Shown: positions 14,899 through 36,180 of the stretch, in pieces | Layout: each line of letters begins with the position of its first letter | Position numbering within the stretch: position 1 is the first letter of the stretch | Source: Saprospiraceae bacterium | Lineage (GTDB): Bacteria > Bacteroidota > Bacteroidia > Chitinophagales > Saprospiraceae | Direction: 5' to 3' | Assembly: GCA_028285085.1 (NCBI GenBank) | Contig: JANQQI010000118.1 | Coordinates: 1-47,551 of the forward strand | DNA: 47,551 nucleotides | Notes under the pieces: generated by a model | Databases searched by the model: none | Told to the model about the DNA's origin: nothing | Seen by the model: the letters and a program-made list of their open reading frames with translations, nothing else | Translations under genes and position numbers: made by a program

Positions 14899-15366
14899 AT
14901 GAAACTGACACATCTTAATAAAGACGGCCAACCGGGTATGGTGGATGTGAGTGAGAAACAAATCACCGCTCGTGTAGCGACTGCTAGCGGGCGCATCCAA
15001 CTTGGTAAAGAAGTGATTGCCATCTTGGCTAAAGATGGTTTTAATACCAAGAAAGGCTCTATTGCTCAAACGGCGATCATCGCCGGTACGATGGCCGTCA
15101 AAAATACGTACAACACGATTCCGCTTTGCCACCAAATTCCAATTGCATCCTGCAAATTCGATATTCAACCCGATGAAGAAGGCTTTGGGATTAGTTGTAC
15201 CGTGAAAACCAATAGTCAAACTGGGGTAGAAATGGAAGCCCTGCATGGCGTTTCAGTGGCGGCTTTGACGATCTACGATATGTGCAAAGCGCTATCTCAC
15301 GATATGGTCATTTCAAACATTCAACTTGATAAAAAAACAGGAGGTAAAACAGATTATGAGCGATAA
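14899..15366 (+). CDS. moaC: Cyclic pyranopterin monophosphate synthase MoaC
   Basis: The 155-residue protein matches MoaC throughout: MVDVSEKQITARVATASG at the start, the central KGSIAQTAIIAGTMAVKNT, LCHQIPI, and the catalytic-site region GVEMEALHGVSVAALTIYDMCKA. It converts 3',8-cyclo-GTP to cyclic pyranopterin monophosphate after MoaA. The start codon lies 10 bases past moaA, and its last codons overlap the start of mobA, which indicates a translationally coupled operon. Confidence 0.95.
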   Translation: MKLTHLNKDGQPGMVDVSEKQITARVATASGRIQLGKEVIAILAKDGFNTKKGSIAQTAIIAGTMAVKNTYNTIPLCHQIPIASCKFDIQPDEEGFGISCTVKTNSQTGVEMEALHGVSVAALTIYDMCKALSHDMVISNIQLDKKTGGKTDYER

Positions 15367-16483
15367 ACATCAGAAGCATCCTCCTTTAAAAAGGACGCCA
15401 AAGTGGGCGTTCCACCGCAATGAATGGGCCGTATACGGTACCACCTGTGCGGGCGTGAAATCATTTTTTGATCGGCTGGGGATTGCTTTGGCGCCCACTC
15501 GTCTGGCTTATGTCGACGCTGACCACAGTGAGGAGCAGCAACAGAGTTTTCAGCAAATCGGTAAGAAGCAATTTCACTTTGCTCAACCCCTTGAATGGGG
15601 GGAATATGATGATCGCCTGTTCAATTGGCCCATCGATGCCGCTATTGTCAACGGCAACCACTACCCGGCCACTCGTCAAATTGTCATTATTAATTCTAAA
15701 AAACGGGACTCGCTCTTGCGGCGCATCGATCAGTTGACACAGATCGACATGATCCTGCTAGCCGAAGGGGAAAGCGCGCCCTATAATTTTTTAACCGATA
15801 AGATCAGCGCGCAAACGCCTATCCTCAGACTCGATGATACTGCAGGGATCGCTACCCTACTCCAAGACAAACTCGCAGCGAATATTCCACCGCTCAAAGC
15901 CTTGATCCTGGCCGGCGGAAAAAGCAAACGCATGCAAGCCGATAAAGCCCAATTGGCCTATCATGATGGTCAATCTCAAGTCGCTTATCTGGCTGGTATT
16001 TGCCAAGAATTGGGGCTAGAGACTTACATTTCCCGTTCTCACGAAGCCAGCGACGCACCTTACGAGGGCTTTCCGGTCATCAAAGACCGGCTCGTTGATA
16101 TGGGCCCATTTGGAGCCATTTGTTCGGCTTTTTTGCACGATCCTACCGCAGCTTATTTGGTTCTCGCTTGTGACTTGCCGTTAATCAATCGAGAAAGCAT
16201 CGTAACACTCATGCAGCAGCGCAATCCGAGCAAATACGGTACAGCTTACAAATTGGTAGATCAAGCCTTCCCCGAACCGCTCATCAGCATTTACGAGCCA
16301 AAGGTGTATCAGCGACTGCTCCGATTACTAACGCTGGGCTACGCCTGTCCACGCAAAATATTGATCAATAGCGAAGTGGAAATTATAGACTTGGTGGATG
16401 CCACTGTTGCTTTTAATGCCAACACGCCCGCGGAGCGGGACCAGGCATTGGCGATAATTCAAGGGCGAGCGCCTACCCAGTAG
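15356..16483 (+). CDS. mobA: MobA-type molybdenum cofactor guanylyltransferase with extra N-terminal domain
   Basis: The 375-residue product is two domains. Residues from about 183 on are a MobA nucleotidyltransferase: LILAGGKSKRMQADKAQL is the LAGGxSxRMGxDK nucleotide loop, and GPFGAICSAF and VLACDLPLI are the next family motifs. The first 180 residues (FHRNEWAVYGTTCAGVKSFFDRL, IVNGNHYPATRQIVIINS) resemble a MobB-like fold that lacks a Walker A lysine; that is inference. MobA makes the guanine dinucleotide cofactor. I start at ATG 15356 because it is preceded by AGGAGG (15339-15344) and overlaps the moaC stop by 11 bases; the frame also opens ten codons earlier at 15326. Its 3' end overlaps convergent moaE by 25 bases. 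Confidence 0.85.
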   Translation: MSDKHQKHPPLKRTPKWAFHRNEWAVYGTTCAGVKSFFDRLGIALAPTRLAYVDADHSEEQQQSFQQIGKKQFHFAQPLEWGEYDDRLFNWPIDAAIVNGNHYPATRQIVIINSKKRDSLLRRIDQLTQIDMILLAEGESAPYNFLTDKISAQTPILRLDDTAGIATLLQDKLAANIPPLKALILAGGKSKRMQADKAQLAYHDGQSQVAYLAGICQELGLETYISRSHEASDAPYEGFPVIKDRLVDMGPFGAICSAFLHDPTAAYLVLACDLPLINRESIVTLMQQRNPSKYGTAYKLVDQAFPEPLISIYEPKVYQRLLRLLTLGYACPRKILINSEVEIIDLVDATVAFNANTPAERDQALAIIQGRAPTQ

Positions 16484-16878
16484 CTGCCATCTTCCCAATG
16501 TTCTTTTTTCCAAATCGGGACGGTCTCCTTAAGGGTATCGATACAGTATTGGCACGCTTGGAAAGCGACATCGCGATGGACCGATGAAACGGCGATAATA
16601 ACGGCAATTTCAGTAATCCCAACCCGACCTGAACGATGGGCCATGGTGACCTTTTTTGCACCGAGTGTTTCAATACAATGCGCTGCAATCTTTTCCATTT
16701 CTTTCACGGCCATCGCATCGTAAGTCTCAAAATCGAGGTGAGTAACGGCCTTCCCTTTATTATGATTGCGGACAGTACCGACAAATAAACAAATCCCACC
16801 GCAGGCTTCATCTACGACAGATTGGTAAACCCCGTCCAGGGATAGGGGCTCAGGAGAAATGTATACGTTGGTTGCCAT
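16459..16878 (-). CDS. moaE: Molybdopterin synthase large subunit MoaE
   Basis: The 139-residue protein shows MoaE motifs: GGICLFVGTVRNHNKGKAVTHLDFETYDAMA, the AHRSGRVGI loop, and near the end IWKKEHWEDGSYWVG with the conserved active-site lysines. With MoaD it transfers two sulphurs to cyclic pyranopterin monophosphate to make molybdopterin. It is the last gene of the long leftward set and lies 14 bases after moaD. Its 3' end overlaps the mobA 3' end on the opposite strand. Confidence 0.95.
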   Translation of the reverse strand: MATNVYISPEPLSLDGVYQSVVDEACGGICLFVGTVRNHNKGKAVTHLDFETYDAMAVKEMEKIAAHCIETLGAKKVTMAHRSGRVGITEIAVIIAVSSVHRDVAFQACQYCIDTLKETVPIWKKEHWEDGSYWVGARP

Positions 16879-16892
16879 AATTTTTGTAAAAA

Positions 16893-17129
16893 TTAACCTC
16901 CACTGACCGGTGGAATGATGGCTATTTCATCACCCGCAGTCATGATGACATCATCTTTTGCGTAGACTTGGTTGACGGCAATCATGTAGCCTTTGAGTTC
17001 GGTAAAAGCCGGATATTTGGTATTCAAAATCCCGCGAAAATCACCCACCGACAAACCATCGATAGCAATTTGATGGATGTCTTGATCTACAATATCCTTG
17101 GCAATGCCGAAGCAAAAAATGTCAGTCAT
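16893..17129 (-). CDS. moaD: Molybdopterin synthase sulphur carrier MoaD
   Basis: The 78-residue protein is a ubiquitin-fold sulphur carrier. It ends in IAIIPPVSGG, with the C-terminal Gly-Gly that is adenylated and converted to thiocarboxylate. FCFGIAKDIV at the start and VYAKDDVIMTAGDEIAIIPP are typical of MoaD. The start overlaps the upstream mocA frame by 8 bases and moaE follows directly. No MoeB-type activating enzyme is encoded in this window. Confidence 0.92.
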   Translation of the reverse strand: MTDIFCFGIAKDIVDQDIHQIAIDGLSVGDFRGILNTKYPAFTELKGYMIAVNQVYAKDDVIMTAGDEIAIIPPVSGG

Positions 17130-17715
17130 AATTTTGAATATGTTCTAAATCTGATGGACGATCTAAATCCAGCCAACCTTCCGCAAATTCAACCATCGAC
17201 AATAAAGATCGGTTATTTTTTAGAATTTTTTTGGCGCCAACATCGCCGCTGATCTCATTAATCAAATGCCAGTGCTGACGGGGAAACAAACACGGAATCC
17301 CAAAGGTATCCCGATAGGCACTGACTATGATTTTGTCAGGTTGGTGTTGATGCTGCGCGAGTAATCGTTCGAAAATATTTTGATGAATGAATGGTTGATC
17401 CGCTACCGAAACAATAATAGAATCAACGGCCTCATCCGCTTGAATACGTTGAAAGCCCGTCTGAATCGAAGAGGCAATTCCCGTATGAAATTGTGGATTA
17501 TCGATAATACTAACGGGAAAAGGGCCGGCAATGCGATTGACCACTTCAGGATAGGCCCCGCTAACGATAAAAGTTTTGCTATTCGGTACGGCCAGTGCCG
17601 CTTCAATGGTGTTCTGCAAGAGGGATTTACCGTGGACCTCAATCTCCAGTTTACAACGCTCCATCCGGGATGATTTTCCGGCCGCGAGGATCAATATGGC
17701 GTTACGACTATCCAC
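17122..17715 (-). CDS. mocA: MocA-like molybdenum cofactor cytidylyltransferase / NTP transferase
   Basis: The 197-residue protein is a MobA/MocA-family nucleotidyltransferase. The N-terminal loop is LILAAGKSSRMERCKLEIEVHGKSLL (LAAGxSxRMGxxK form). VSVADQPFI is the MocA-type DQP motif, and YRDTFGIPCLFPR and GDVGAKKIL follow. MocA enzymes load CTP onto Mo-molybdopterin to give the cytosine dinucleotide cofactor. This is the cofactor of xanthine-oxidase-family enzymes such as bacterial CO dehydrogenase, so the placement in the cox set fits. Specificity for CTP is inferred from context and motif. Confidence 0.85.
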   Translation of the reverse strand: MDSRNAILILAAGKSSRMERCKLEIEVHGKSLLQNTIEAALAVPNSKTFIVSGAYPEVVNRIAGPFPVSIIDNPQFHTGIASSIQTGFQRIQADEAVDSIIVSVADQPFIHQNIFERLLAQHQHQPDKIIVSAYRDTFGIPCLFPRQHWHLINEISGDVGAKKILKNNRSLLSMVEFAEGWLDLDRPSDLEHIQNYD

Positions 17716-17740: not shown

Positions 17741-18934
17741 TTATCGGAATATCAAAATAGGATAAACCTCTCCTTTTTGATAAAGATCCTTCCCCTTCGT
17801 CAGTTCAATAAAGGCATCCGCCCGGACCAGATTCGCTAAATCTCCCGAACCATTACCCTTTTTCGGCATCGCTAAACATTTTCCATTTTGATCGTAAGAA
17901 ATATCCACTTCCAAAAAATAGGTCAAATCGGGCTTGAAATGGACATCAGCTTGCAATTCGGCGTAAATCGGCTTAGGCTGTCCATCCAGGAGGCACAAAT
18001 TCAACCAATGCTTAAAATATTTTTGGGTACACAAAAAGGAAGACACCGGATTACCGGGTAAGGCAAAAACCGTACAGCGATTCGTTTTACCAAACCAAAA
18101 GGGCTTACCCGGACGCTGACTAATTTTGTGAAACAACTTTTCTACCCCCAATTCCGACAACACCTCCGGTAAATAATCGAATTTACCTTTCGAGACACCA
18201 CCACTGAGGATCAGAATATCGTAAGTCGCCAAGTACTCCGCTAACTTCTCGCGTAACTCGGCTTTATCATCGTTCAGATGACTCGACATCGTCTCGAGCC
18301 CCATGCGCGATAAAGCTGCTTTGATCCGATAGACATTCGAACGGCGAATCTGATGGGCCTGGGGTGTTTCGCGAATATCAACCAATTCATCACCCGTAGA
18401 AATCACCATGGCCTTCGGCAGACGGGCCACCTGGATGAGGTCTCTCCCAATGCTGGCCCCCACCCCAATTTCCGCCGGCGAAATACGGGTGCCGCTCGGC
18501 ACAATCAATTCTCCTTGCTTACGATCTTCGCCCTTAAAGTGAATGTTTTGATAATGACTGACTTGATCCAGCAGGAAGGTTGCCGTATTATTTTCGATGG
18601 CTAAATCTTCGTAGCGAATGATGACATCCGTATTTAGAGGAGTCACCGCGCCGGTCATCACTTCGAGGCAATGTTCGTCATTTTGCAGGCGCATCTGTGC
18701 CATCCCTGCCGCCGCAATCCCTTCTATTGGAAAGCTACGCCGACCGCTGACAAACTGCTCGTACTTAATCGCAATACCATCCATAGTCACTCGATCGTAA
18801 GGTGGTAAGTCTCGATCCGTTCGCCAATCTTCACGCAGAATTCGGCCTTCGGCCGCTTCCAAAGGAATCGTTTCTACTCCAAAATCTTTTTTACAGGAAC
18901 TGATAATTTGAATCGCTTCTTCGACGGTGATCAT
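17741..18934 (-). CDS. moeA: Molybdopterin molybdenumtransferase MoeA
   Basis: This 397-residue protein carries the MoeA series: EAAEGRILREDW, LPPYDRVTMDGIAI (near 43-56), the MoCF-domain STGDELVDI (near 184), ILILSGGVSKGKFDYLPEVL (near 245) and ALPGNPVSSFLC (near 295). It ligates molybdate to adenylated molybdopterin. The usual partner MogA/MoaB is not in this window. The gene lies 40 bases after the coxI-like gene and 25 bases before mocA, inside the leftward set. Confidence 0.93.
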   Translation of the reverse strand: MITVEEAIQIISSCKKDFGVETIPLEAAEGRILREDWRTDRDLPPYDRVTMDGIAIKYEQFVSGRRSFPIEGIAAAGMAQMRLQNDEHCLEVMTGAVTPLNTDVIIRYEDLAIENNTATFLLDQVSHYQNIHFKGEDRKQGELIVPSGTRISPAEIGVGASIGRDLIQVARLPKAMVISTGDELVDIRETPQAHQIRRSNVYRIKAALSRMGLETMSSHLNDDKAELREKLAEYLATYDILILSGGVSKGKFDYLPEVLSELGVEKLFHKISQRPGKPFWFGKTNRCTVFALPGNPVSSFLCTQKYFKHWLNLCLLDGQPKPIYAELQADVHFKPDLTYFLEVDISYDQNGKCLAMPKKGNGSGDLANLVRADAFIELTKGKDLYQKGEVYPILIFR

Positions 18935-18974: not shown

Positions 18975-20072
18975 TTAATCTCGGTGGTGAATGGTGCCTT
19001 GTCGATATTTCAGGGAGGTCCCCTCGCGTTCGCGGAACACGGCTACAATTTCAGCGGTGATCGACAACGCAATTTCTTCGGGCGTCTCTGCGCCAATATC
19101 CAGGCCCACCGGAGCGTGAAAGTAATGAATCTGATCCAAATCGACGTCGGGTAATTCATCATTCATCTTGGCCATGCGTTTTTTTGGGCCAAGCATACCA
19201 ACGTAGGGCAAATCCATTTGCAAAAACTCGGGTAGCAAGGTCTTATCCCAATTATAATCGTGGGTCATCAAGATGACCGCCGTGTATTCATCTTGCGGGA
19301 TTTGATGAAAGGACTCATATTCATACACCTTGGCAGCTTGTGCAAAAATAGATTTGGACATTTTTTTCTTTCGCCCGACGACGTGGATTTCCCAGCCGAG
19401 TTCTTTAGCGATCCCAATCATGGCTCGCACATCGTAATTATCACCAACGACGACCAGCTTGGTTTCCGGGCGAATGAACTCTACCAGGACGCGCAATTGC
19501 TCACCCGTTTTATTGCTTAGGGTCACGATTTGCGGGCGACGTTTGATTCGCGTTTTGCGAATTTCTTCCATGAGCACCGCCGAGTCGATCGCACAAAAAT
19601 CAAGATCCGATAATTCATCATCCACGATAACTTCCAAACCAAGATATTCTTCTGTGGTTTCTACATTGATGATTTTCAATAGAATGGAAGCCTCTTTATT
19701 TGCTATAATTTTTTCCAGATTGGCAATGACATCTGAGCCAAAATCTTCGCTAATTGGTGTAAAAAGAACTTCTAGTCGTCCGTTGCAACCGAGGCCCACG
19801 CCAATTTGATTTTTGTCATCGTCCATCGTATCGTAAACCACTCGCGAAGGCTGATTATGAAAAATCGCTTTTTGCGAGCGTTTCAAGGCATCCCCTTCCA
19901 AACAGCCTCCGCTAATACCACCAACCCACTGCCCACTGCTACTGACCAGCATACGAGCACCGATTCGACGATAAGAAGATTCCTCTACGTTGACCACAGA
20001 AGCTAGTGCCAGTCTATGATTTTCGTGCGAAAAAGCGCGATAGGCTTTTAGAATATTTCTGATTTCTTTCAT
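18975..20072 (-). CDS. coxI: XdhC/CoxI family maturation protein
   Basis: The 365-residue protein has the XdhC_CoxI N-terminal domain (SSYRRIGARMLVSSSGQWVGGISGGCLEGDAL, GLGCNGRLEVLFTPI) and a C-terminal Rossmann domain (KLVVVGDNYDVRAMIGIAKELGW; ILMTHDYNWDKTLLPEFL). XdhC proteins bind molybdenum cofactor and help with its sulphuration and insertion into xanthine-oxidase-family enzymes. I start at ATG 20072, one base after the stop of the upstream gene. The frame extends 14 codons further to 20114, but those codons overlap the neighbour's conserved end. The symbol follows cox-cluster convention; orthology to a specific Cox protein is not proven. Confidence 0.88.
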   Translation of the reverse strand: MKEIRNILKAYRAFSHENHRLALASVVNVEESSYRRIGARMLVSSSGQWVGGISGGCLEGDALKRSQKAIFHNQPSRVVYDTMDDDKNQIGVGLGCNGRLEVLFTPISEDFGSDVIANLEKIIANKEASILLKIINVETTEEYLGLEVIVDDELSDLDFCAIDSAVLMEEIRKTRIKRRPQIVTLSNKTGEQLRVLVEFIRPETKLVVVGDNYDVRAMIGIAKELGWEIHVVGRKKKMSKSIFAQAAKVYEYESFHQIPQDEYTAVILMTHDYNWDKTLLPEFLQMDLPYVGMLGPKKRMAKMNDELPDVDLDQIHYFHAPVGLDIGAETPEEIALSITAEIVAVFREREGTSLKYRQGTIHHRD

Positions 20073-20073
20073 A

Positions 20074-21045
20074 TCAATGCACTTGTGCCATATATTTCTC
20101 GGGCGCTTTTTCAAAACTTACTTTACAACCGTCACAACAGAAATATACTTTTTCGTCTTTGTATTCAATAATGTGTTTAGCGGTACTTTTTTGCACCGGA
20201 ATATTGCAAACGGGGTTCATATAGTAATCGTCACCCAACTTAATATTTTGTGCGTTGGGTTCTTCTGTTTTCTCTTTGCGAAAATGCTCGATAATCTCCG
20301 CCAAAATACTAATCGCGACTTCATGCGGCGTCTTAGCGTTGATATCTTTTCCCGCCGGGGTTTTTATTTTTTTCAAATCATCAAAACTAACGCCCTGTCG
20401 TTTCAAATCCAGAAAAAGTGCGTTCGCCTTCATCCGACTTGCAACAAATCCCAAATAATCCGACGAAGAACGCAGGCCTTTCAGTAAGGCCACATTATCC
20501 CCTTCCCCCTGCGTACAGACTACGGTATAGAAACTGCTATCGGCCTGCTCCGCATCAAAATCGCTTAATAAGCTATGCCGATCTGCGTTAGGAAATTGGT
20601 GGGAGTCTAGTTCTGAAGTCACCACCTCCACGTGATATTCCATCGATTTTGCTACTCGCTCCAGGGCCATTGCAATATGTGAGGCGCCAAAAATGCGAAT
20701 CTTAGGATTTGGCAGTACCGGTTCGATGTATACATCCACCTCGCCACCACTTTGACAAGTCATGGTATATAATTTAGTATGTGTATCCAGTTTCTCAACG
20801 GCATTGGGTCGAATGCTCACCAGGCGGGGCTTTCGATCCTGCAGCGCGGCCAAGGCTTCCTTCAGCACGATTCCGCGCGTACAGCCCCCACCAATCCAGC
20901 CGTGTATTTTCCCATCATCGGTGATGATCGCCTTATCTCCCGGCTTACCAGATGACGGCTTTTTGCGCCGCACGATATAGGCCGTAGCATAAGCCTTGTT
21001 TTCATCGAGAAGGCTTTGTGCTTTTTGAATAAAACTGTTATGCAT
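20074..21045 (-). CDS. coxF: CoxF-like XdhC-family protein with fused C-terminal YHS metal-binding domain
   Basis: Residues 1-255 are an XdhC-family protein of the CoxF type: SSGKPGDKAIITDDGKIHGWIGGGC (31-55), CQSGGEVDVYIEP (97-109), a Rossmann segment (IRIFGASHIAMAL, near 117-128), and AKTPHEVAISILAEI near 237-251. Residues 271-323 are a YHS domain: YYMNPVCNIPV with C280, and VYFCCDGCKVSFEKAPEKY with C303, C304 and C307. YHS domains bind metal and occur in copper ATPases and oxygenases. Genetic work in Oligotropha linked CoxE and CoxF to copper insertion into CO dehydrogenase, so a fused metal-binding domain here is suggestive. It overlaps coxE by 8 bases. Confidence 0.88.
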   Translation of the reverse strand: MHNSFIQKAQSLLDENKAYATAYIVRRKKPSSGKPGDKAIITDDGKIHGWIGGGCTRGIVLKEALAALQDRKPRLVSIRPNAVEKLDTHTKLYTMTCQSGGEVDVYIEPVLPNPKIRIFGASHIAMALERVAKSMEYHVEVVTSELDSHQFPNADRHSLLSDFDAEQADSSFYTVVCTQGEGDNVALLKGLRSSSDYLGFVASRMKANALFLDLKRQGVSFDDLKKIKTPAGKDINAKTPHEVAISILAEIIEHFRKEKTEEPNAQNIKLGDDYYMNPVCNIPVQKSTAKHIIEYKDEKVYFCCDGCKVSFEKAPEKYMAQVH

Positions 21046-22174
21046 GGATTAATATATTTTCCAATTCCAATAAACTATTGAGGTTATGGGCCGCTCCGAA
21101 ATGATTGAGCTGAGGAAGCACCACTTGCATGCCCCGCTGAATCGGTTCGTAGCCCGTCATACCTTTTAAAGGATTTAACCAGATCAATCGTTTTGATTTC
21201 ATGCTGATTTTTTGGATCGCCGTATCCAGAATCTCCGGCTCGCCGGTATCCAAGCCATCACTTAGAATCAAGGTAAGGGTACTTCCATTCAAATAGCGTT
21301 TGTGGTACTGCTCATTGAACTCTCGAAGGCATTCACCAATCTTGGTCCCACTGGACCAGTGATCTGCGACCCGCGAGACCGAAAAAAAGGCCGTTTGAAT
21401 GTCTTTGTCATCCAACTGATCTGTGATGCGTCTTAGCTTCGTACTAAAAGTGAAGACTTCAATCTGCTTAAAATGCATGCGCAGTGACCAGAGGAATTTC
21501 AGCAAATAATAAGAGTATTTATCCATCGAACCACTGACATCGAGTAACACTAGCAAGCGAAATTTTTCGCGCTGCTTGGCTTCGCGGAATAGTTCGATGA
21601 TGTTACCACCGCGTTGTAGATTTTTCCGAATCGAGCGACCAATATTAATTTGGCCGGCATTAGTCCGCTTGCGTTTGCGCTTGATGCGGAGGCTCATTTC
21701 TCGAACCAGGCGCTCCGCCAATTCATCTAAAAGCTCAGATTGTACGGCCGTCAATTTGCTAAAATCGGTACTTTTCAAAGTATCCTTGGCATTAGCACCG
21801 GAGGTATTTTTCCCCTCGTCCAGCACACCTTCTTCCTTAGACTTGCCCAAGCCCGCCATGACGAGCGTATTTTGCGAAGCACGATGGATGTTCTTTTTGT
21901 TGTTGTAAGTGGATCTGGATTTGATGCGCGTCCCCTTCTCCAGCCAAAACTGGCGATAAAGCGGTGAGAATTTTTCCCGCTCCTCTTCAGTTTTACAAAA
22001 TAAGCTGGCAAGCGCATGCTCAAAAAAAGGCTGCTCCAGCCATATCCCGGACAGGGCCGTCAACATCGCATCCTTACTGCAGCTAATCCCGTTATTAAAT
22101 CCTTCGGTGCGGGCGAACTGATTGAAGCCCACCAAGGCGGCCGCAAATGATTGATAATTCGTGTAGTGATCCAC
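21038..22174 (-). CDS. coxE: CoxE-like VWA-domain protein
   Basis: The 378-residue protein has a helical N-terminal part (1-140), a basic linker (LRIKRKRKRTNAGQINIGRSIRKNL, near 162-186), and a VWA domain. The MIDAS motif is LLDVSGSMDKYSYYLLKFLW (DxSxS at 212-216), followed by VFTFSTKLRRIT and LILSDGLDTGEP. CoxE-type VWA proteins pair with the MoxR ATPase CoxD and act in building the Mo-Cu site of CO dehydrogenase. The gene follows the 57-residue ORF after 21 bases and overlaps coxF by 8 bases. Confidence 0.9.
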   Translation of the reverse strand: MDHYTNYQSFAAALVGFNQFARTEGFNNGISCSKDAMLTALSGIWLEQPFFEHALASLFCKTEEEREKFSPLYRQFWLEKGTRIKSRSTYNNKKNIHRASQNTLVMAGLGKSKEEGVLDEGKNTSGANAKDTLKSTDFSKLTAVQSELLDELAERLVREMSLRIKRKRKRTNAGQINIGRSIRKNLQRGGNIIELFREAKQREKFRLLVLLDVSGSMDKYSYYLLKFLWSLRMHFKQIEVFTFSTKLRRITDQLDDKDIQTAFFSVSRVADHWSSGTKIGECLREFNEQYHKRYLNGSTLTLILSDGLDTGEPEILDTAIQKISMKSKRLIWLNPLKGMTGYEPIQRGMQVVLPQLNHFGAAHNLNSLLELENILIHA

Positions 22175-22195: not shown

Positions 22196-22369
22196 CTAGC
22201 CTTGCTCTCTGAGTTTTTTCATCTCAGCGATTCGTTGCCGTGCAGCGGCGGCGTCAACATTGAAGGTTCGCGTCCCGGTCAAATCAACAGAGTTGTAGTG
22301 CTTGGCACGAATTTCAGCGTCTTTCTTGATTTGTTCTTCTAGTTCTTGATATTCTTTTAGTAATGACAT
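22196..22369 (-). CDS. Small hypothetical protein of 57 residues in the cox set
   Basis: ATG at 22369 opens a 58-codon frame that starts MSLLKEYQELEEQIKKDAEI, contains VDLTGTRTFNVDAAAARQRI, and ends MKKLREQG. It is charged, predicted helical, and has no membrane segment or Cys. It lies 21 bases upstream of coxE on the same strand, and its codon use resembles the neighbours, which supports a real gene. I recognise no family. A role as a small partner of CoxD or CoxE is only a guess from position. Confidence 0.6.
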   Translation of the reverse strand: MSLLKEYQELEEQIKKDAEIRAKHYNSVDLTGTRTFNVDAAAARQRIAEMKKLREQG

Positions 22370-22795
22370 CTGTAGGTGGTTTTAAAAGTTTAAAATTATA
22401 GCGAGGGGTTATAAAATCGTTTATGTCTTAATTAGGGATGAGGAATTAATTACCCTGGTTATTGAATTTGAATCTTGATTTTGAAGTGGTGGTAGAGCAT
22501 TGGGCTTTGAGGGAGGGACCCACCCTCAGCCGCCACCGCCGGCCAACCTTTGGCCGCAAGAATTTTCGGGCATATCGCTCCCAGCCTTTGCCAAGAACAT
22601 TTTATGGACAAATGGTTAATTACAATCGTTTTCAGAAATATTTCTAATATCTATAGATTCCATTTTTCCAAAATTCCATAAAATCATATTACTTTATTCC
22701 TAAACTGACAACATAAAGCACTCATAATCAATGAGAAAAAATTTTAAAAAAAATCGGATTTTGGAATAAAAAAATCGACTATTTCTCCCTTTTCA
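22370..22795. other. Intergenic region between coxD and the small ORF
   Basis: About 425 bases without a gene, the largest gap inside the cox set. Its middle (22501-22575) is clearly more GC-rich than its flanks and folds: GAGGG/CCCTC (22509-22527) and GGCCAA-CCT-TTGGCC (22541-22555). The part next to coxD is a series of A/T runs. A weak -7-like TAATTTTA lies shortly upstream of the small ORF on the minus strand, so coxE and downstream genes may also have their own promoter. No T-tracted terminator is evident. Confidence 0.4.
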
Positions 22796-23662
22796 TCAGA
22801 ATATCTCTTGCTTCACCAGTTGAATATCCCGTTCGGATTTCAACAAGCACGACAGCGTAACATAGAGCGGATCATCTAAATCTTTCATCAGCATGATCCC
22901 TTTGGCCCAATCAATCGTCTCGGCGATACCGGGTGATTTATCCAATTTTAGTTGTCGCATTTTTTTAACGTAGGCCGCAATCTGTTGAGATAGACTCAGC
23001 TCGATATCGGGTAAATGCTTTTTAAGAATACGCATCTCCTTTTCCTCAGAAGGAAAATCTACCCAATGATACAAACAACGTCTTTTCAAAGCATCGCTTA
23101 ATTCGCGGGTACGATTGGAGGTCAAAACCACCAATGGCTTTTCTTTGGCTTTGACCGTGCCCAGCTCAGGGATACTGATCTGAAAATCGGAAAGCAATTC
23201 CAGCAGAAAAGCCTCGAACTCTTCATCGGCCCGATCAATCTCATCGATTAGAAGAATCTTTCTGGTATCCGTATCGATGGCTTGTAACAGCGGCCGTTTC
23301 AGCAGATATTCTTCGCCGAAAATATGCGCTTCTTTATCACGGGCACTCTTACCTGATTGCTCGTGAATCTTGATGGCCAATAATTGCTTTTGATAATTCC
23401 ACTCGTAAATGGCATTATTGACGTCGAGGCCTTCGTAGCACTGTAGGCGCACCAGATCATATCCCAACAACTGAGACAGAATATATGCAATCTGTGTTTT
23501 TCCCACGCCCGGACTGCCTTCCAGCAACAGTGGCTTTTCCAGCTTCAGCATGAGGAACAGAACAGTGGCTATGTCTTCCTCGATGACATAGCCAATCTCA
23601 TCAATCTTGGGAATGAGCTCTTTTGGATGTGAAAACAAAGGGAAATTATTTTTTGCGTCCAA
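22796..23662 (-). CDS. coxD: CoxD-like MoxR-family AAA+ ATPase
   Basis: The 288-residue protein is a MoxR AAA+ ATPase. Walker A is GSPGVGKT (49-56), Walker B LLIDEIDRADEEFEAFLLELL (near 137-157), sensor 1 VVLTSNRTRELSDALKRRC. In the cox system this protein, CoxD, is a chaperone-like ATPase needed to form the sulphur-bridged Mo-Cu centre of CO dehydrogenase, and it typically works with the VWA protein CoxE. The start overlaps the end of coxG by 17 bases. The cognate VWA gene lies downstream across the 425-base gap and the small ORF. Confidence 0.92.
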   Translation of the reverse strand: MDAKNNFPLFSHPKELIPKIDEIGYVIEEDIATVLFLMLKLEKPLLLEGSPGVGKTQIAYILSQLLGYDLVRLQCYEGLDVNNAIYEWNYQKQLLAIKIHEQSGKSARDKEAHIFGEEYLLKRPLLQAIDTDTRKILLIDEIDRADEEFEAFLLELLSDFQISIPELGTVKAKEKPLVVLTSNRTRELSDALKRRCLYHWVDFPSEEKEMRILKKHLPDIELSLSQQIAAYVKKMRQLKLDKSPGIAETIDWAKGIMLMKDLDDPLYVTLSCLLKSERDIQLVKQEIF

Positions 23663-24173
23663 AAATACTCTTCGCTACGGTACCGAGCATCGAGCCGGCT
23701 GTCATGGTGTTGTCGACTTCTTCACCGGCCAGCTTGGCTTTGAAGTTTGCCACAAATTGATTCAACAGCTGATCCGAAACATCATTGATCAAGCGTGAGC
23801 CAAATTGCGCTAACATCCCGACGATAGAAATCTCCATCTTGAAGTTCACCTGCGTCTTGCCATCTTCTTCCACTAAAAAGCCGTTCATCACCATATCCGC
23901 AGAACCTTTTCCTTTACTATCCAGTCCACGACCTTTCAAGGTCATTTTGTAGTCTGTATCATTACGCTCCAAAATTTCGATATCACCAGCGTAGCGTACC
24001 TTCATCGGGCCAAATTTTGTGACCACCTCACCTTTGTAATTGTTTTCATCTACCTTTTCGGTCAATACTGCTCCCGGTACACAGGTGACGATTTCCTCTG
24101 GATTCGCCAGGCTTTGCCACACTTTATCCATGGGCTCCTCAATGGTAAATTGTTTTTCAATTGTACTATTCAT
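23646..24173 (-). CDS. coxG: CoxG-like SRPBCC protein
   Basis: The 175-residue protein belongs to the CoxG branch of SRPBCC (START-like) folds: FTIEEPMDKVWQSLANPEEIVTCVPGA, YKGEVVTKFGPMKVRYAGD, MKMEISIVGMLAQFGSRLI in form, and a short basic tail. CoxG proteins accompany CO dehydrogenase genes and have been associated with membrane attachment of the enzyme. I start at ATG 24173 (MNSTIEKQF); the frame opens 12 codons earlier at 24209, inside the hairpin region that follows coxL. It overlaps coxD by 17 bases. Confidence 0.9.
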   Translation of the reverse strand: MNSTIEKQFTIEEPMDKVWQSLANPEEIVTCVPGAVLTEKVDENNYKGEVVTKFGPMKVRYAGDIEILERNDTDYKMTLKGRGLDSKGKGSADMVMNGFLVEEDGKTQVNFKMEISIVGMLAQFGSRLINDVSDQLLNQFVANFKAKLAGEEVDNTMTAGSMLGTVAKSIFGRKK

Positions 24174-24196
24174 GATGATTGGTTTATACAGGTTTA

Positions 24197-24230
24197 CAAA
24201 AAGAAGCACTCCGGTTCTCCGCGGAATGCT
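24197..24230 (-). terminator. Hairpin with T-tract between coxL and coxG (possible attenuator)
   Basis: On the minus strand AGCATTCCG (24230-24222) pairs with CGGAGTGCT (24213-24205), one T-G wobble, with an 8-base loop, followed by TCTTTTTG. It sits 17 bases past the coxL stop. A partial terminator here would let the structural genes be expressed above the maturation genes. Confidence 0.6.
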
Positions 24231-24246
24231 CCTTTTAAAATGATTA

Positions 24247-26616
24247 TTATTTAAAATACCCCACTTCCTTCAACTTCTTATAAAGTTTGAAAGGCGTTAC
24301 AGGGATTTCTAAATGCTCAATACCCAAATGAGATACTGCATCAACAATCGCATTGACGATGGCTGGCGGTGCACCAACCGTAGGCGATTCACCGACTCCC
24401 TTGGCACCAATCGGATGGTGAGGTGATGGCGTTACCGTATGCCCCGTTTCCCAATTTGGTGATTCCACGGCCGTAGGTACGAGATAATCCATGAAGGTGC
24501 CATTGAGGATATTGCCCGCTTCATCGTAAATCAATTCCTCGTACATGGCTGGTGCGATCCCTTGCGTCAAACCACCGTGTACTTGCCCCTGTACAATCAT
24601 TGGATTAATAATATTACCGCAATCATCAATCGCTACAAAGCGACGAACTTTGATATCACAGGTTTCAGAATCGATATCCACAATGCAGATATAAGCTCCC
24701 GAAGGGAAAGTCAGGTTGGGTGGATCGTAATAATGTGTCGTTTCAAAACCGGCTTCCATTCCCGGAGGATGGTTAGTATACGCGGCAAAGACAAGCTCCT
24801 GGATCGTTTTTGCTTTTTCGGGCGCGCCTTTGACGAAGAATTTGCCTGGTTCCCATTCGAGATCTTCTTCGCTGACCTCAAGCAGATAAGCCGCAATTTT
24901 CTTGGCCTTTGCGCGTAGCTTACGGGCCGCTACTGCTGCCGCTGCTCCCGCCGTAGGCGTACTTCGACTCGCATAGGTACCCAGACCATAAGGGGCCGTA
25001 TCGGTATCTCCCTCTTCAATTTGGATGTGCTCCATGGGGATACCCAGTTCTTCTGCGACGATCTGAGCGTAAGTTGTTTCGTGCCCTTGTCCTTGTGACT
25101 TAGTACCGAAACGCGCAATGGCTTTACCCGTTGGGTGTACACGGATTTCCGCAGAATCAAACATTTTCACACCCAGAATATCAAAATTCTTCGATGGCCC
25201 AGCACCAACAACCTCCGTAAAGGTCGAAATACCGATACCCATCCATTTACCTTGCTCACGTTTTTCGAGCTGCTCTTTGCGCAGTTCATCGTAGCCCACC
25301 GCATCCATAGCTTTTTGCAAGCCCGCGTGATAATCACCCGAATCGTAAGACCAACCCGTTGGTGATGCCCAAGGGAAATCTTCTTTCTTGATAAAATTAT
25401 CCATGCGGAGCTGCGCTGGATCTTTGCCCACTTCTTTGGCAAATTTATCCGTAATCCGTTCAATCGCATGCACGGCCTCCGTTACCCGAAAGGAACAGCG
25501 ATAAGCTACTCCTCCCGGAGGCTTGTTGGTATATACTGCATCGGCTTCCATGTAGGCAGCGCCATAATCGTAGGAACCTGTACCGATGGAGAATAAGCCC
25601 GTTGGGAACTTCGAAGGATTGGCCGAAGCATCGGTATAACCGTGATCCGCTAATACTTTGAAGCGCGTTGCTTGAATTTTACCGTCTTTGGTTCCCGCCA
25701 TCTCAGCGGTAATATGATAATCACGCGCGAAAGAATCCGCCTGAAGATTTTCACTCCGATCTTCAATCCATTTGATGGGCGCACCGGTTAGGAAGGATAC
25801 CGCAATAGCAATAACGTAGCCCGGATAAACCGGTACTTTTCCACCAAAACCACCTCCAATATCCGGTGAAATGACCCGAATTTTCTCCTCCGTCAATCCG
25901 ACGTGGCCAGCTACCAGCGCAATGACTGTACGAATCGCGTGTGGCGCTTGCGTGGTCATATACATCGTTAGGTGATTCTCCACCTTATTATAGGCAGCAA
26001 CACATCCACAAGTTTCGATCGAGGCAACGTGAATACGGGGGATATGCATCTGTTGCTTAACAACCACATCCGCGTTATCAAAAATTTGGTCTGTTTTGTC
26101 CTTATCACCAACCTCCCAATGCCAGATATGGTTATCCGTTTTGCCTTCCTTGTCGGAACGCAAGACCGGCGCATCTTCGTCCAATGCTTTAAATGGATCC
26201 ATCACTGGCTTCATTTGTTCGTACTCCACGATGACGGCCTCTTTACCATCCCGAGCGGTGTAGCGGTCCGTCGCAATTACGGCGGCCACTTCCTGAGCCT
26301 GATACATCACCGTGTCGGTAGGGAGTACCATCTGGGTATCAGACATCAGGGTCGGCATCCAGTGTAGGTTGTATTGTTCCAGGTCTTTGCCGGTTACGAC
26401 GGCAATTACGCCGGGTATTTCTAATGCTTTAGAAGCATCGATCTTTTTGATTTTAGCGTAGGCGTAGGGGCTGCGCACAATATCCATGTGTAGCATACCG
26501 GGCAACTTGACATCGTCGACATAGTTACCTTTGCCTTGGATAAATCGAGCATCTTCCTTTCGCTTTTTGGAGTGCCCCATTCCTCCGATTTCCTTAGAGG
26601 TTTTACATTTTATCAT
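24247..26616 (-). CDS. coxL: Form I aerobic carbon monoxide dehydrogenase large subunit CoxL
   Basis: The 789-residue molybdenum subunit carries AYRCSFR at residues 371-377 (25486-25506). This is the form I CO dehydrogenase loop AYxCSFR, with C374 as the copper ligand; form II and other family members have AYRGAGR-like loops. GVGES with E743 matches the catalytic glutamate. DIGGGFGGKVPVYPGY, TKSQGQGHETTYAQIVAEELGIP and VQGQVHGGLTQGIAPAMYEEL are cofactor-binding segments. Length is close to the roughly 809-residue Oligotropha protein. The enzyme oxidises CO with water to CO2, passing electrons through CoxS and CoxM. The N-terminus has no Tat or Sec signal, so it is cytoplasmic. It follows coxS after 86 bases. 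Confidence 0.93.
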   Translation of the reverse strand: MIKCKTSKEIGGMGHSKKRKEDARFIQGKGNYVDDVKLPGMLHMDIVRSPYAYAKIKKIDASKALEIPGVIAVVTGKDLEQYNLHWMPTLMSDTQMVLPTDTVMYQAQEVAAVIATDRYTARDGKEAVIVEYEQMKPVMDPFKALDEDAPVLRSDKEGKTDNHIWHWEVGDKDKTDQIFDNADVVVKQQMHIPRIHVASIETCGCVAAYNKVENHLTMYMTTQAPHAIRTVIALVAGHVGLTEEKIRVISPDIGGGFGGKVPVYPGYVIAIAVSFLTGAPIKWIEDRSENLQADSFARDYHITAEMAGTKDGKIQATRFKVLADHGYTDASANPSKFPTGLFSIGTGSYDYGAAYMEADAVYTNKPPGGVAYRCSFRVTEAVHAIERITDKFAKEVGKDPAQLRMDNFIKKEDFPWASPTGWSYDSGDYHAGLQKAMDAVGYDELRKEQLEKREQGKWMGIGISTFTEVVGAGPSKNFDILGVKMFDSAEIRVHPTGKAIARFGTKSQGQGHETTYAQIVAEELGIPMEHIQIEEGDTDTAPYGLGTYASRSTPTAGAAAAVAARKLRAKAKKIAAYLLEVSEEDLEWEPGKFFVKGAPEKAKTIQELVFAAYTNHPPGMEAGFETTHYYDPPNLTFPSGAYICIVDIDSETCDIKVRRFVAIDDCGNIINPMIVQGQVHGGLTQGIAPAMYEELIYDEAGNILNGTFMDYLVPTAVESPNWETGHTVTPSPHHPIGAKGVGESPTVGAPPAIVNAIVDAVSHLGIEHLEIPVTPFKLYKKLKEVGYFK

Positions 26617-26702
26617 TTGAAATTGAGTTTCTAAAATTGAATCAATGGTTTTAGGCTGAACCGCTGAAGCTTGATCTTCAGGGCCCGTCGTACAACAATG
26701 GG

Positions 26703-27206
26703 CTATACGAACTCAGGTTCGGTAGACGGCAATTCGCTACCATTCATCTTGGCAGCCGTCCATTGTATGGCTTTGACAATATTATTGTAGCCGGTGCAGC
26801 GGCAGAGATTCCCGGCAATTCCCCAGCGGATTTCTTCTTCCGTAGGATTGGGATTGTGCTCCAGCAATTCGATGGCGCGCATCATCATGCCCGGCGTACA
26901 AAATCCACAGTGCAGGGCGTGGTTGAGGTGAAAGCCCTCTTGAATAGGATGCAATCCTTCGGCGGTAGCCAAACCTTCTACGGTGGTAATTTCCTTACCA
27001 TTAGCCTGCACGGCCAAGAGGGTGCAAGATTTTGCAGATTTCCCGTCAACTAGAATGGTGCAAGCACCACAGCTTGAAGTATCACAACCAATGTGAGACC
27101 CTGTTAGAGAAAGTATTTCCCGCACCAGGTGGATAAGTAAAGTTCTGGGCTCAACATCTACAGTATGTTCAGTACCGTTGACTTTTAGAGTTATTGTCTT
27201 TTTCAT
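26703..27206 (-). CDS. coxS: Carbon monoxide dehydrogenase small (2Fe-2S) subunit CoxS
   Basis: The 167-residue protein has the two [2Fe-2S] domains of xanthine-oxidase-family small subunits. The plant-ferredoxin-like cluster is bound by C41, C46, C49 and C61 ([16 protein letters not shown]), the second by C100, C103, C135 and C137 ([16 protein letters not shown]). It relays electrons from the Mo-Cu site of CoxL to FAD in CoxM. All eight ligands are present. The gene lies between coxM and coxL in the canonical M-S-L order. Confidence 0.95.
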
Positions 27207-27345
27207 ATTCTATTTTTATGACAAACGGCGATTCAATTGGTAGGCTAAATCGCAGCTTGGTTTATTTGAGTATTTGATTAAAGTGGTAGGGGTAAAAATG
27301 AATGCAGTTATCTATTTTATACTCCTAATGCATTAATACGACCAG

Positions 27346-28212
27346 TTACTTTATCCGACCGAGTGCCCGATGAATCATCCGCTTCGTAATGACTTTAACC
27401 AAGTGGCGTTTGTAATCTTCATCACCCCGTAGGTCATCGCTAGGAGAGCAATCTTCGGATGCATAAAGGGCCGCATTGGCAATATCCTCTTCGGACAATT
27501 TAGTGCCGACCAAAGCAGCTTCCGAGCGTTCGGCACGCATAGGAAGTGGATTTACATTGGTCAAGCCTATACCGGCCTTGGTGCAAGTACCGTCGGCATC
27601 TAACTCGATAGCGACAGCTACCCCAGCGGTGGCGTAATCTCCGACTTTGCGCTCAGCCTTGTGATACGCTGATCCAAATCGGCCGGCGGGTGCCGGGATT
27701 TTAATCTCAGTCAAAATCTCACCGTGCTGTACCGCGGTCATATAAAATCCGTAGAAAAACTCATCAATTGATACACTTCTGGAGCCTTCGACATTCTCAA
27801 TCTCCACTTCTGCTCCCAGAGCAATCATTACCGCAGGATGATCATTGGCGGCATCACCGTGAGCAAGGTTCCCGCCGATGGTACCAAAGTTGCGTACTTG
27901 CGGATCGGCAATTAACTTGGTAGCATCACCAAAAATGTGATACTTATCTCTGACCAGATCAGAATGTTCGAGATCAGATTCTCTGGTCAGGGCACCTATT
28001 TTCAGAAAACCGTCTTCTTCTTTGACATAAGACAAGCCTTCAATGTTGTTAATGTCGATCAGACAAGTAGGTGCCGCAAAGCGTAGCTTCATCATCGGGA
28101 TAAGACTGTGCCCTCCGGCTAGGATTTTGGCTTCGTCTCCGTGTTCATGAAGCAATTGAATCGCCTCCTTGATCGTGGTTGGCGCTTCGTAATTGAATTT
28201 TTCTGCAATCAT
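27346..28212 (-). CDS. coxM: Carbon monoxide dehydrogenase medium (FAD) subunit CoxM
   Basis: The 288-residue flavoprotein has the two FAD pyrophosphate-binding loops of the family: AGGHSLIPMMKLR (32-44) and TIGGNLAHGDAANDHPA (111-127). The CODH-type C-terminal domain follows (RFGSAYHKAERKVGDYATAGVAVAI, AGIGLTNVNPLPMRA). It accepts electrons from CoxS and hands them to the respiratory chain. It lies 7 bases after the small membrane protein gene and 139 bases before coxS. Confidence 0.95.
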   Translation of the reverse strand: MIAEKFNYEAPTTIKEAIQLLHEHGDEAKILAGGHSLIPMMKLRFAAPTCLIDINNIEGLSYVKEEDGFLKIGALTRESDLEHSDLVRDKYHIFGDATKLIADPQVRNFGTIGGNLAHGDAANDHPAVMIALGAEVEIENVEGSRSVSIDEFFYGFYMTAVQHGEILTEIKIPAPAGRFGSAYHKAERKVGDYATAGVAVAIELDADGTCTKAGIGLTNVNPLPMRAERSEAALVGTKLSEEDIANAALYASEDCSPSDDLRGDEDYKRHLVKVITKRMIHRALGRIK

Positions 28213-28219
28213 GTTTAAA

Positions 28220-28663
28220 TTATTCTATAGATTTTACTTTTAGCATTTTTATCCTCATCAAAAATTTATTCGCAAAATAGAAGAAGCTACCATTGTACCA
28301 GATTCCAAAAAACAACAAAACGACCCCCAGGTAATACAAAGGCATCGAAATATAGAGGAACTGGCAGATTCCAATCAAGGCTACACCGGTCACCGCAATT
28401 ACCGTGGCTACAGTCGTTCGCTTACCACGTTTATTCATAATAATTCCAAGAATCACAAAGAGAGAAATACCCAAGGTCAGATAACCACTCCATCCGCCAA
28501 GATTAGGGTAGTAGGTTTTACCGCTACACAAGGTCATCGCACCGGTGTAGGCCATGATACAAAATGGGCATTTAGGCAGGATAGCCACTACCACTGCAGG
28601 TAAATAAGCATATATACTTTTTAAGATACCGCGCGATGGCTTTTCCTCTTTATGACAAGTCAT
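28220..28663 (-). CDS. Small polytopic membrane protein with CPFC motif, first gene of the cox operon
   Basis: The 147-residue protein has about four hydrophobic segments: AYLPAVVVAILPKCPFCIMA, GYLTLGISLFVILGIIM, ATVIAVTGVALIGICQFLYI and YYLGVVLLFFGIWYNGSFF. The first contains the dithiol CPFC, and the cytoplasmic or leader end has MTCHKEEK. Cys motifs in a first membrane helix recall mercury and copper transport proteins (MerC, MerF types), but I cannot assign a family. I chose ATG 28663 because a promoter-like TAATTTTG ends at 28694; the frame extends to 28696. It is 7 bases from coxM, so it is almost surely co-transcribed. Confidence 0.7.
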   Translation of the reverse strand: MTCHKEEKPSRGILKSIYAYLPAVVVAILPKCPFCIMAYTGAMTLCSGKTYYPNLGGWSGYLTLGISLFVILGIIMNKRGKRTTVATVIAVTGVALIGICQFLYISMPLYYLGVVLLFFGIWYNGSFFYFANKFLMRIKMLKVKSIE

Positions 28664-34889: not shown

Positions 34890-36101
34890 ATGAGGATTTC
34901 GAGATTATTCATTTTCACCCTAAGTGTTCTGGTATTTGTTGCCTGCCAATCCGATGACGACTTTGTAGATACATCAATCGATGATCCGATGGATATCCCG
35001 GACATTAATGATGTGGACGATCCGACTCCCGAACCAGTGAATACGGATATCGTAGAACTGGGCCGTCAATTGTTTTGGGATCCCATTTTATCAGGTGAAA
35101 AAGACGTGGCTTGCGCCACTTGCCACCACCCTAATTTTGGCTATTCTGACGGCCGTGAATTGCCAATTGGTGTAGGTGGCGTTGGCCTCGGCCCGCAACG
35201 TATTGATGCCGTCAACGACGACATCGGCCTGGTGCCTCGAAATTCACCAACCATCATCAATACCGCTTTCAATGGCATGGATGAGCTCGGAAACTACGAT
35301 CCCGACCTTGCGCCGATGTTTTGGGATAATCGAACACTCAGCCTTGAAGCACAGGCGATTGGTCCGCTACATTCTTTTGAAGAGATGCGTGGTCATGCAT
35401 ACGACGAAGCGCTGACCATCGATAGCATCGTCGCTCGTCTTCAGTCTATTGATGCTTATCGCAACAGCTTTGAAGCTATTTTCAGTGGTTCCGATCCGAT
35501 CAATTCTAATACTATTGGTGAGGCTATCGCAGCGTTTGAGCGTACGATTACAGCTACAGATAGTCCTTTTGACCGCTTTCAGGCAGGCGATCAAAATGCG
35601 TTAACACAAGCCCAAATTCGTGGCATGAACCGCTTTAATCAGGTTGGCTGCGATGATTGCCACAGTGGGCCGATGTTTTCTGACTATCAGCTACACGTTC
35701 TTGGTGTACCGGACAATGATTTGCTCAGTTTTTCGGATGACGGAGCAAACGGTACCTACGCTTTTCGTACGCCGACCTTGCGTAATTTGTCGGATACCGG
35801 GCCATACTTCCATAATGGCGTCGCCGGGAATCTCCAGCAGTCGATTCAGTTCTACATTACAGCCCGTAATGCTGCGAACGGAGGTCCCGGTGGCCCGGGT
35901 GGCCCTCCCGGTGGTCTGGCCGCTAATCCAAACGTAAACGCTAATGAGTACGATCCCGAAATTCGCGATCTCGGCAATCTGAACCCCAATGACATCCAGG
36001 ATATTGTAGCCTTCATTCGGGCTCTTGACGATCCAAACTACGACCGTAGTGTTCCGTCGAGTGTACCGAGTGGTCTCTACCCTGGTGGCAACATCGACTA
36101 A
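34890..36101 (+). CDS. Di-heme cytochrome c peroxidase / MauG-family lipoprotein
   Basis: The 403-residue protein has a lipoprotein signal (VFVAC, Cys19) and an acidic linker. Two c-type heme sites follow: CATCH (C75, C78, H79) and CDDCH (C254, C257, H258). The family segments ELGRQLFWDPILSG, SPTIINTAF, MFWDNRTLSLEAQA, FRTPTLRNLSDTGPYFHNG and the C-terminal DIVAFIRALDD are present. These proteins reduce H2O2 or, as in MauG, oxidise protein residues. A Gly/Pro-rich insert lies near residues 330-343. The next gene, 79 bases on, is a heme peroxidase with a similar GGPGG-rich linker, which suggests a working pair. Confidence 0.88.
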   Translation: MRISRLFIFTLSVLVFVACQSDDDFVDTSIDDPMDIPDINDVDDPTPEPVNTDIVELGRQLFWDPILSGEKDVACATCHHPNFGYSDGRELPIGVGGVGLGPQRIDAVNDDIGLVPRNSPTIINTAFNGMDELGNYDPDLAPMFWDNRTLSLEAQAIGPLHSFEEMRGHAYDEALTIDSIVARLQSIDAYRNSFEAIFSGSDPINSNTIGEAIAAFERTITATDSPFDRFQAGDQNALTQAQIRGMNRFNQVGCDDCHSGPMFSDYQLHVLGVPDNDLLSFSDDGANGTYAFRTPTLRNLSDTGPYFHNGVAGNLQQSIQFYITARNAANGGPGGPGGPPGGLAANPNVNANEYDPEIRDLGNLNPNDIQDIVAFIRALDDPNYDRSVPSSVPSGLYPGGNID

Positions 36102-36180
36102 CCACAACGGCTTTCAACACCCCCAATTGCTACTACTTGCCAAACAGTACCTATTTCAAAAACTCTAAAATCTGCCAATT

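Follow-up and report, generated by a model that had tools for sequence, protein, structure and literature searches.

How does a cell bring copper to the buried molybdenum-copper site of its aerobic carbon monoxide (CO) dehydrogenase? Aerobic CO oxidisers reportedly take about 250 Tg of CO out of the air each year. A 2014 study of maturation names the identification of missing factors as a future challenge (PMC4240915). In this study, we approach the question from a complete MoCu CO dehydrogenase (cox) gene cluster of a Saprospiraceae bacterium (Bacteroidota; assembly GCA_028285085.1, contig JANQQI010000118.1, all 47,551 nucleotides of which are hereafter called the window). Open reading frames (ORFs) with Pfam and NCBIfam searches give its order as membrane protein-coxM-S-L-G-D-57-residue ORF-E-F-I on the minus strand. 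Two of its features may bear on copper: the membrane protein encoded 5′ of coxM, and a C-terminal tail on CoxF. Compared across related loci (labelled L) and genomes (labelled G), they lead us to favour, with moderate confidence, an explanation in which the cluster would specify a working form I CO dehydrogenase together with a path for its copper supply.

A form I CO dehydrogenase in Bacteroidota

The molybdenum hydroxylase family is large, and the same genome encodes further proteins of the xanthine oxidase family, which leaves room for a look-alike hydroxylase with a substrate other than CO. An earlier note on this DNA had argued for a genuine form I enzyme, and our results agree with it. 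CoxL scored 1219.9 bits against TIGR02416 (NCBIfam), exceeding the equivalog cut-off of 991.15 by more than 200 bits. Its best PDB matches were the solved CO dehydrogenases 1ffu, 1zxi, 1n5w and 8uem (1029-1053 bits), against 479 bits for the next enzyme, quinoline 2-oxidoreductase, and, aligned over 99% of the query, it shares 59.0% identity with the CoxL of Oligotropha. As the note had read them, residue 374 is the cysteine of the copper-ligand loop VAYRCSFR and residue 743 the glutamate of KGVGES. CoxM carries the motifs AGGHSL and TIGGN, and CoxS has cysteines at positions 41, 46, 49, 61, 100, 103, 135 and 137. The AYRCSFR loop recurs in 96 of the 97 loci with CoxL of at least 50% identity (a set with repeats, in which the window's own gene is counted three times), the remaining one, Marivivens, having SYRCSFR. 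The coxDEFG set is complete, Pfam matches to COXG, VWA_CoxE, AAA_5 and, twice, XdhC_CoxI with XdhC_C identifying coxG, coxE, coxD and coxF/coxI.

The phylogeny of CoxL, suggested in the note as a check, placed the window's protein within known form I and apart from AYRGAGR relatives with a support of 100. The tree (FastTree, 87 rows) was rooted on three AYRGAGR enzymes from Bacteroidota loci and left out the partial sequences of L077, L089 and L103; FastTree is a quick method, and the fine branching order is unreliable. Within these limits, the protein falls in a Bacteroidota clade of 71 rows, three of them labelled otherwise or unlabelled, with one Rhodothermota row and the Myxococcota and SAR324 rows just outside and Thermomicrobium next. 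Family score, loop, accessory set and tree together make it very probable, as far as can be predicted from sequence, that the cluster encodes a form I MoCu CO dehydrogenase; the look-alike hydroxylase, rejected on family score, active-site loop and tree, is extremely improbable.

This part of the finding is ordinary, as Bacteroidota form I coxL is already published. The closest CoxL relatives (94% identical) come from metagenome-assembled genomes (MAGs) named Saprospiraceae and Lewinella; 182 stretches of our genome collection code for CoxL relatives, of which the best 80 were kept (76-94% identical). CoxL occurs in 34 of 198 genomes sampled from the family (33 above the cut-off, one truncated by a contig end) and in 6 of 296 sampled from the phylum. 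The earlier note had described Bacteroidota form I enzymes as little studied. Their rarity is weaker than this implied: Bacteroidota are among the seven dominant soil phyla with coxL in 2019 (PMC6794299) and are listed again in marine surveys of 2026 (PMC13203968, PMC13240472), and we dropped rarity as a point of novelty. The lists of cultured CO oxidisers, in those portions of the published work that were available, name no Bacteroidota. A search of the genome gave two matches to haem-copper oxidases and no match to RuBisCO; from this and the established biology of CO dehydrogenases, the organism is likely a carboxydovore, a heterotroph using CO as a supplementary energy source.

The membrane protein ahead of coxM

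Of the 80 loci kept, 70 are usable here in that they include coxM with more than 600 bp upstream of it (10 fail), and in 59 of these 70 a homologue of the membrane protein lies 5′ of coxM. The gap to coxM is below 400 bp in 44 loci and 1.2-1.7 kb in 15. In all 15 long-gap loci a BNR/sortilin-type beta-propeller of 360 residues stands between membrane protein and coxM, accompanied in 11 of them by a small ThiS-like protein ending in GG. The Pfam assignments come from the copies in L147 (L147:2368-2637:+ and L147:2603-3730:+). Neither protein was found in the remaining loci or the window.

The association with CoxL extends to whole genomes. At a threshold above 90 bits for the membrane protein, which 32 of the 198 family genomes pass, both proteins were present in 30 genomes, CoxL alone in 4, the membrane protein alone in 2 and neither in 162 (Fisher 7e-29, a value that ignores kinship above genus), so that the membrane protein accompanies CoxL in 30 of 34 genomes and is found without it in 2 of 164. 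Counted by genus, the figures are 22, 2, 0 and 88. Of the two genomes without a CoxL match, G440 has a coxM that starts at the contig end, and G452 is taken up below. G375 and G022 are cut off by a contig end ahead of the place where coxM would be expected. The phylum sample was of little use here, with CoxL in only 6 genomes. A locus labelled Acidobacteriota, L098, also has the membrane protein. In L167 (about 2150-2750, from G451) a fragment of the protein with SPKCPFC directly precedes a CoxF-YHS fragment, with no coxMSL between; in a genome without a form I CoxL match, the arrangement resembles what the deletion of a cox cluster would leave behind.

Co-occurrence with the structural genes might equally be expected of a protein that docks CO dehydrogenase to the membrane or passes on its electrons, as is thought for CoxG. 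A coxG match is, however, already present in 65 of the 69 loci with room for it after coxL, and the distant relatives described below accompany copper oxidases, not respiratory dehydrogenases. We consider such a role very unlikely.

Sequence, topology and resemblance to MerC

No Pfam or NCBIfam family matched the protein above cut-off, and at E 0.1 the window's protein matched only MFS_1 in Pfam, weakly. For an alignment of the family (A1), 60 rows were collected, leaving out L065 and a weaker second match of L042. Five rows were then removed, L042 for its Ns and L030, L038, L066 and L086 for want of a methionine in the allowed range, and 52 of the remaining 55 were used, L046, L058 and L085 being omitted as near copies. 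Invariant in all 52 are M1, C3, C32, C35, C46 and Y110, with C32 and C35 forming the motif CPFC. A net positive charge is carried by the N-terminus in 49 of 52 rows and by loop 2 and the C-terminus in all 52, against 13 for loop 1 and 5 for loop 3, a pattern that points to an N-in/C-in topology. C46 would then lie where helix 1 meets the periplasm, with C32 and C35 inside the helix and C3 in the cytosol; read as a ladder, these cysteines would offer a soft metal a plausible way inward. Searching the PDB with the A1 profile gave nothing usable (best E 3.1), and a plasmid search with the window's protein gave no match.

A small membrane protein with early cysteines recalls MerC (PF03203), and the protein could move another metal or be a resistance protein of the MerC kind sitting in the operon by chance. 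Pfam MerC does turn up at E <=0.1 for 23 of the 52 aligned proteins (best 2e-5). The window's protein has no MerC match at E 0.1, and we did not assign it to that family. The profile similarity is weak and partial: against 15 MerC proteins of related genomes hhalign gave a probability of 42%, aligning the later helices and not the cysteine region, where the motif is CPFC as against CxxHC. Since the protein also accompanies CoxL in the family sample and is hardly found without it, we regard this alternative as improbable.

Distant relatives and the copper link

Profile searches uncovered a second group of proteins with the motif PKC(P/A)xC. Six of them, aligned as A3, matched the membrane-protein family over the CPxC region and the helices (hhalign 97.4%, E 1.3e-11), and the reciprocal profile search returned a match at E 2.7e-7. 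Within a few kilobases, nine of 13 such relatives are linked to copper proteins. A tyrosinase gene adjoins those in L154, L159, L164, L181, L182 and L183 and a haemocyanin gene the one in L184; in L155 the relative is fused to SCO1/SenC; and L180, on a plasmid of Paraburkholderia caribensis, is linked both ways, its SCO1/SenC fusion being separated from a tyrosinase by one gene, for an unknown protein. Six of the 13 had built the A3 profile (three copper-linked); among the other seven, six are linked. We did not accept as relatives the weak A1 matches of G069, G105, G335, G396 and G451 or the second matches of G354 and G026, nor G113, which has no matching ORF of 90 residues, nor four proteins in L160-L163 that are without PKCxxC and MerC-like (checked with Pfam for L160).

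Redox proteins, too, typically carry a CxxC within a membrane helix. The membrane protein may thus be a thiol-redox or general maturation factor, for example one keeping the thiols of the metal site reduced, that carries no copper, and the relative in L165, in a row with a quinoprotein oxidase, speaks for this possibility. The SCO1/SenC fusions and type-3 copper neighbours of the nine relatives fit copper better, an argument tempered by the fact that SCO itself is discussed as a thiol-redox protein. On balance we find the redox role rather unlikely, though it deserves to be kept in mind, and a copper role, as importer or donor for CO dehydrogenase, reasonably probable.

The closest precedent is PpoB2 of Marinomonas (COG5486), a transmembrane protein encoded in a tyrosinase operon and reported to supply copper (PMC2855505). 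It reportedly serves one copper enzyme from within that enzyme's own operon, and is an analogue for which no match supports homology. We did not place our protein in the PpoB2 family, as the window's protein matches nothing beyond MFS_1 at E 0.1; the other members were judged on the 25 of 39 families listed. Pfam presumably holds a model for that family.

The exchangeable tail of CoxF

Mutants of Oligotropha in coxE and in coxF produce a CO dehydrogenase that is devoid of copper, and CoxF has been proposed as the copper carrier (PMC4240915). In the window, coxF adjoins coxE and its product has the XdhC_CoxI and XdhC_C domains. The core cysteine motif reads MTCQSGG, the counterpart of MCPSHG in Oligotropha CoxF. 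Of the 71 loci in which CoxF was matched, among them L097 (a partial match) and L056 (a gene split over two frames), 68 show the pattern [MNG]x0-1-C-x-S-x-G.

At its C-terminus the window's CoxF carries a YHS domain (PF04945, 42.1 bits against a cut-off of 30.3), which the earlier note had not mentioned and which Oligotropha CoxF does not have. Such domains are small, contain cysteine and are known from proteins that handle metals. With a hidden Markov model (HMM) built in this analysis, the YHS tail was recognised in 65 of the 71 loci, mostly of Bacteroidota, and also in Thermomicrobium, Natronorubrum, Deinococcus, Paraburkholderia and three SAR324 loci. The Pfam model agreed for Thermomicrobium, Natronorubrum, Paraburkholderia and the one SAR324 protein tried, with Deinococcus just under the cut-off (29.1 against 30.3). 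The six without YHS are Oligotropha, Marivivens, two Myxococcota loci (L101 and the partial L097), L079 at a contig end, and L102. In the last, from a Rhodothermaceae MAG, a copper-type HMA domain with MSCQHC takes the place of YHS (43.8 against 24.8 bits), and by alignment the other five phylum-sample genomes with CoxL, four of them from one genus, all have an HMA tail with MSCAHC. A tail of one or other kind thus occurs on CoxF in bacteria and an archaeon. Three Bacteroidota, Flavihumibacter stibioxidans (L062), F. profundi (L069) and Niastella vici (L080), combine coxMSL with the membrane protein and CoxF-YHS.

The replacement of YHS by an unrelated HMA domain at the same site argues for metal binding as the purpose of the tail, which is probably the copper-binding part of CoxF. 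In the literature searched, mostly non-subscription, we found nothing linking the YHS domain to XdhC, CoxF or CO dehydrogenase, and no mention of HMA alongside any of the three.

Comparison with known cox clusters

The cluster of Oligotropha (Afipia) carboxidovorans pHCG3, coxBCMSLDEFGHIK, shares with the window the MSL genes and homologues of CoxD, E, F, G and I. By contrast, the window has G ahead of D and in addition the membrane protein and the 57-residue ORF; proteins of the MHYT type, which flank the Oligotropha cox genes, did not turn up among the window proteins scanned with Pfam. The earlier note had stressed the departure from the Oligotropha order. The departure is real, but it is not special to Bacteroidota: plasmid pBN2 of Paraburkholderia aromaticivorans also has M-S-L-G-D-E-F, together with CoxF-YHS, and we therefore dropped gene order as a novelty. 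In the 26-kb stretch of pBN2, unlike in the window, the profile found no membrane protein.

A proposed route for copper and points against it

Combining these observations, we propose that the membrane protein would take up periplasmic copper at C46, pass it to the CPFC pair (C32, C35) within the membrane and on to C3 on the cytosolic side, where the YHS tail of CoxF may receive it. CoxF and CoxE would then deliver Cu(I) to apo-CoxL, at the molybdenum site that CoxD has sulfurated. The finished enzyme would oxidise CO at its [CuSMoO2] site, with electrons passing through CoxS and CoxM to the quinone pool, assisted by CoxG, and onward to the haem-copper oxidases. The steps after CoxF follow the published Oligotropha model; from comparisons we infer the entry step and the part of the tail, with copper as the cargo, its direction and its hand-over.

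Several observations weigh against these assignments. The membrane protein is missing near coxM in 11 of the 70 loci, among them the close relative L027 (CoxL 94% identical), and from 4 of the 34 CoxL genomes, three from one genus and G032; it is therefore dispensable or replaceable. It is also absent from six named reference clusters and from five of the six CoxL genomes in the phylum sample, being strong only in the window's own genome, and it therefore belongs to one branch of form I clusters. In G354 it is encoded with coxI, the ThiS-like protein and the propeller on a contig other than that of coxMSL, and in the congener G452 the membrane protein, likewise found with coxI, is followed by the ThiS-like protein, the propeller and an unrelated gene, with no coxM and no CoxL found. 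For four of the 13 distant relatives, namely L157 and L158 (one genus), L185 and L165, no neighbour linked to copper was seen in the stretch available; the last (L165:81-3636) is lined up with the quinoprotein LodA and a LodB-like flavoprotein. The nine that are copper-linked are not all independent, L159 and L181 being from one genus.

The tail of CoxF meets objections of its own. YHS domains are no proof of copper, and the CoxF proteins of Oligotropha, Marivivens and L101 (Myxococcota) have neither YHS nor HMA, so that the tail is not essential to CO dehydrogenase maturation generally. G478 has a full-length CoxF-YHS, 67% identical to the window's, but no CoxL match. The contig of this gene (G478:C72:1544-2512) begins 1.5 kb away, and the stated completeness of the genome is 99%. 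G022, with CoxL and no CoxF match, has its CoxL 23 bp from a contig end.

Layout of the locus and other features

The positions of all features are collected in the table. In line with the earlier note, the cox genes are all present on one strand (minus) in the order M-S-L-G-D-E-F-I. The span it had given for the complete set, 22196-28663, reaches from the membrane protein to the 57-residue ORF and takes in coxM, S, L, G and D between them, with coxE, coxF and coxI lying outside. We took its two extra genes to be the membrane protein and the 57-residue ORF, whose ends coincide with those borders.

Features of the cox locus and adjoining molybdenum cofactor genes (window positions)
Feature	Positions	Strand	Basis
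147-residue four-helix membrane protein, first extra gene	28220..28663	-	ORF, ATG start, hydropathy
coxM, FAD subunit	27346..28212	-	Pfam FAD_binding_5 and CO_deh_flav_C; AGGHSL and TIGGN motifs
coxS, two-[2Fe-2S] subunit	26703..27206	-	Pfam Fer2_2 and Fer2; eight cysteines
coxL, form I Mo-Cu catalytic subunit (predicted)	24247..26616	-	TIGR02416, AYRCSFR, PDB matches, tree
coxG, membrane recruitment/electron transfer	23646..24209	-	Pfam COXG, 88.7 bits; start may be ATG 24173
coxD, MoxR-type AAA+ ATPase	22796..23662	-	Pfam AAA_5; homologues at the same position in other loci
57-residue ORF, second extra gene	22196..22369	-	ORF
coxE, VWA protein	21038..22174	-	Pfam VWA_CoxE, 178 bits; start uncertain
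coxF, XdhC-type with C-terminal YHS	20074..21045	-	Pfam XdhC_CoxI, XdhC_C, YHS
YHS domain of CoxF, residues 277-321, proposed copper-binding	20083..20217	-	PF04945, 42.1 bits, cut-off 30.3
coxI, second XdhC-type protein	18975..20114	-	Pfam XdhC_CoxI, XdhC_C
moeA, molybdenum insertion	17741..18934	-	Pfam MoeA_N, MoCF_biosynth, MoeA_C
MobA/MocA-like nucleotidyltransferase	17122..17715	-	Pfam NTP_transf_3
moaE	16459..16878	-	Pfam MoaE
Second MobA-like nucleotidyltransferase	15326..16483	+	Pfam NTP_transf_3, residues 192-345
moaC	14899..15366	+	Pfam MoaC
moaA	13908..14888	+	Pfam Radical_SAM and Mob_synth_C

The 57-residue ORF matched no family in Pfam or NCBIfam. By tblastn, matches to it in the coxD-coxE gap are confined to 11 loci, L027-L037, absence elsewhere not being firm with so short a query. 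Between it and coxD lie 426 bp without an evident gene (22370-22795), within which a G+C-rich patch (22523-22544) occurs only once in the window.

On the 3′ side of coxI, moeA, a MobA/MocA-like transferase and moaE continue on the minus strand, opposed on the plus strand by moaA, moaC and a second MobA-like gene. From its position and resemblance, the nucleotidyltransferase at 17122..17715 may be MocA, making the cytosine dinucleotide form. The first 190 residues of the MobA-like protein at 15326-16483 have no Pfam family match. Elsewhere in the window, 34890-38316 encodes a protein of the di-haem cytochrome c peroxidase/MauG type. After it comes an animal-type haem peroxidase that has a long tract of glycine and proline and a secretion-tail domain.

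Conclusion

In conclusion, we name two concrete candidates for the supply of copper to form I CO dehydrogenase, the membrane protein and the YHS/HMA tail of CoxF. Whether they mark a general arrangement seems to us evenly balanced: outside the alphaproteobacterial model, CO dehydrogenase may have a copper line of its own, composed of a cysteine-ladder importer and a CoxF with an exchangeable YHS/HMA tail. The importer would represent the CO dehydrogenase branch of a family whose other members serve tyrosinases, haemocyanins and SCO proteins, and Oligotropha, the basis of the maturation model, would stand apart, having lost both parts or never possessed them. For those who annotate genomes, both features may aid in recognising true CO oxidisers in Bacteroidota.

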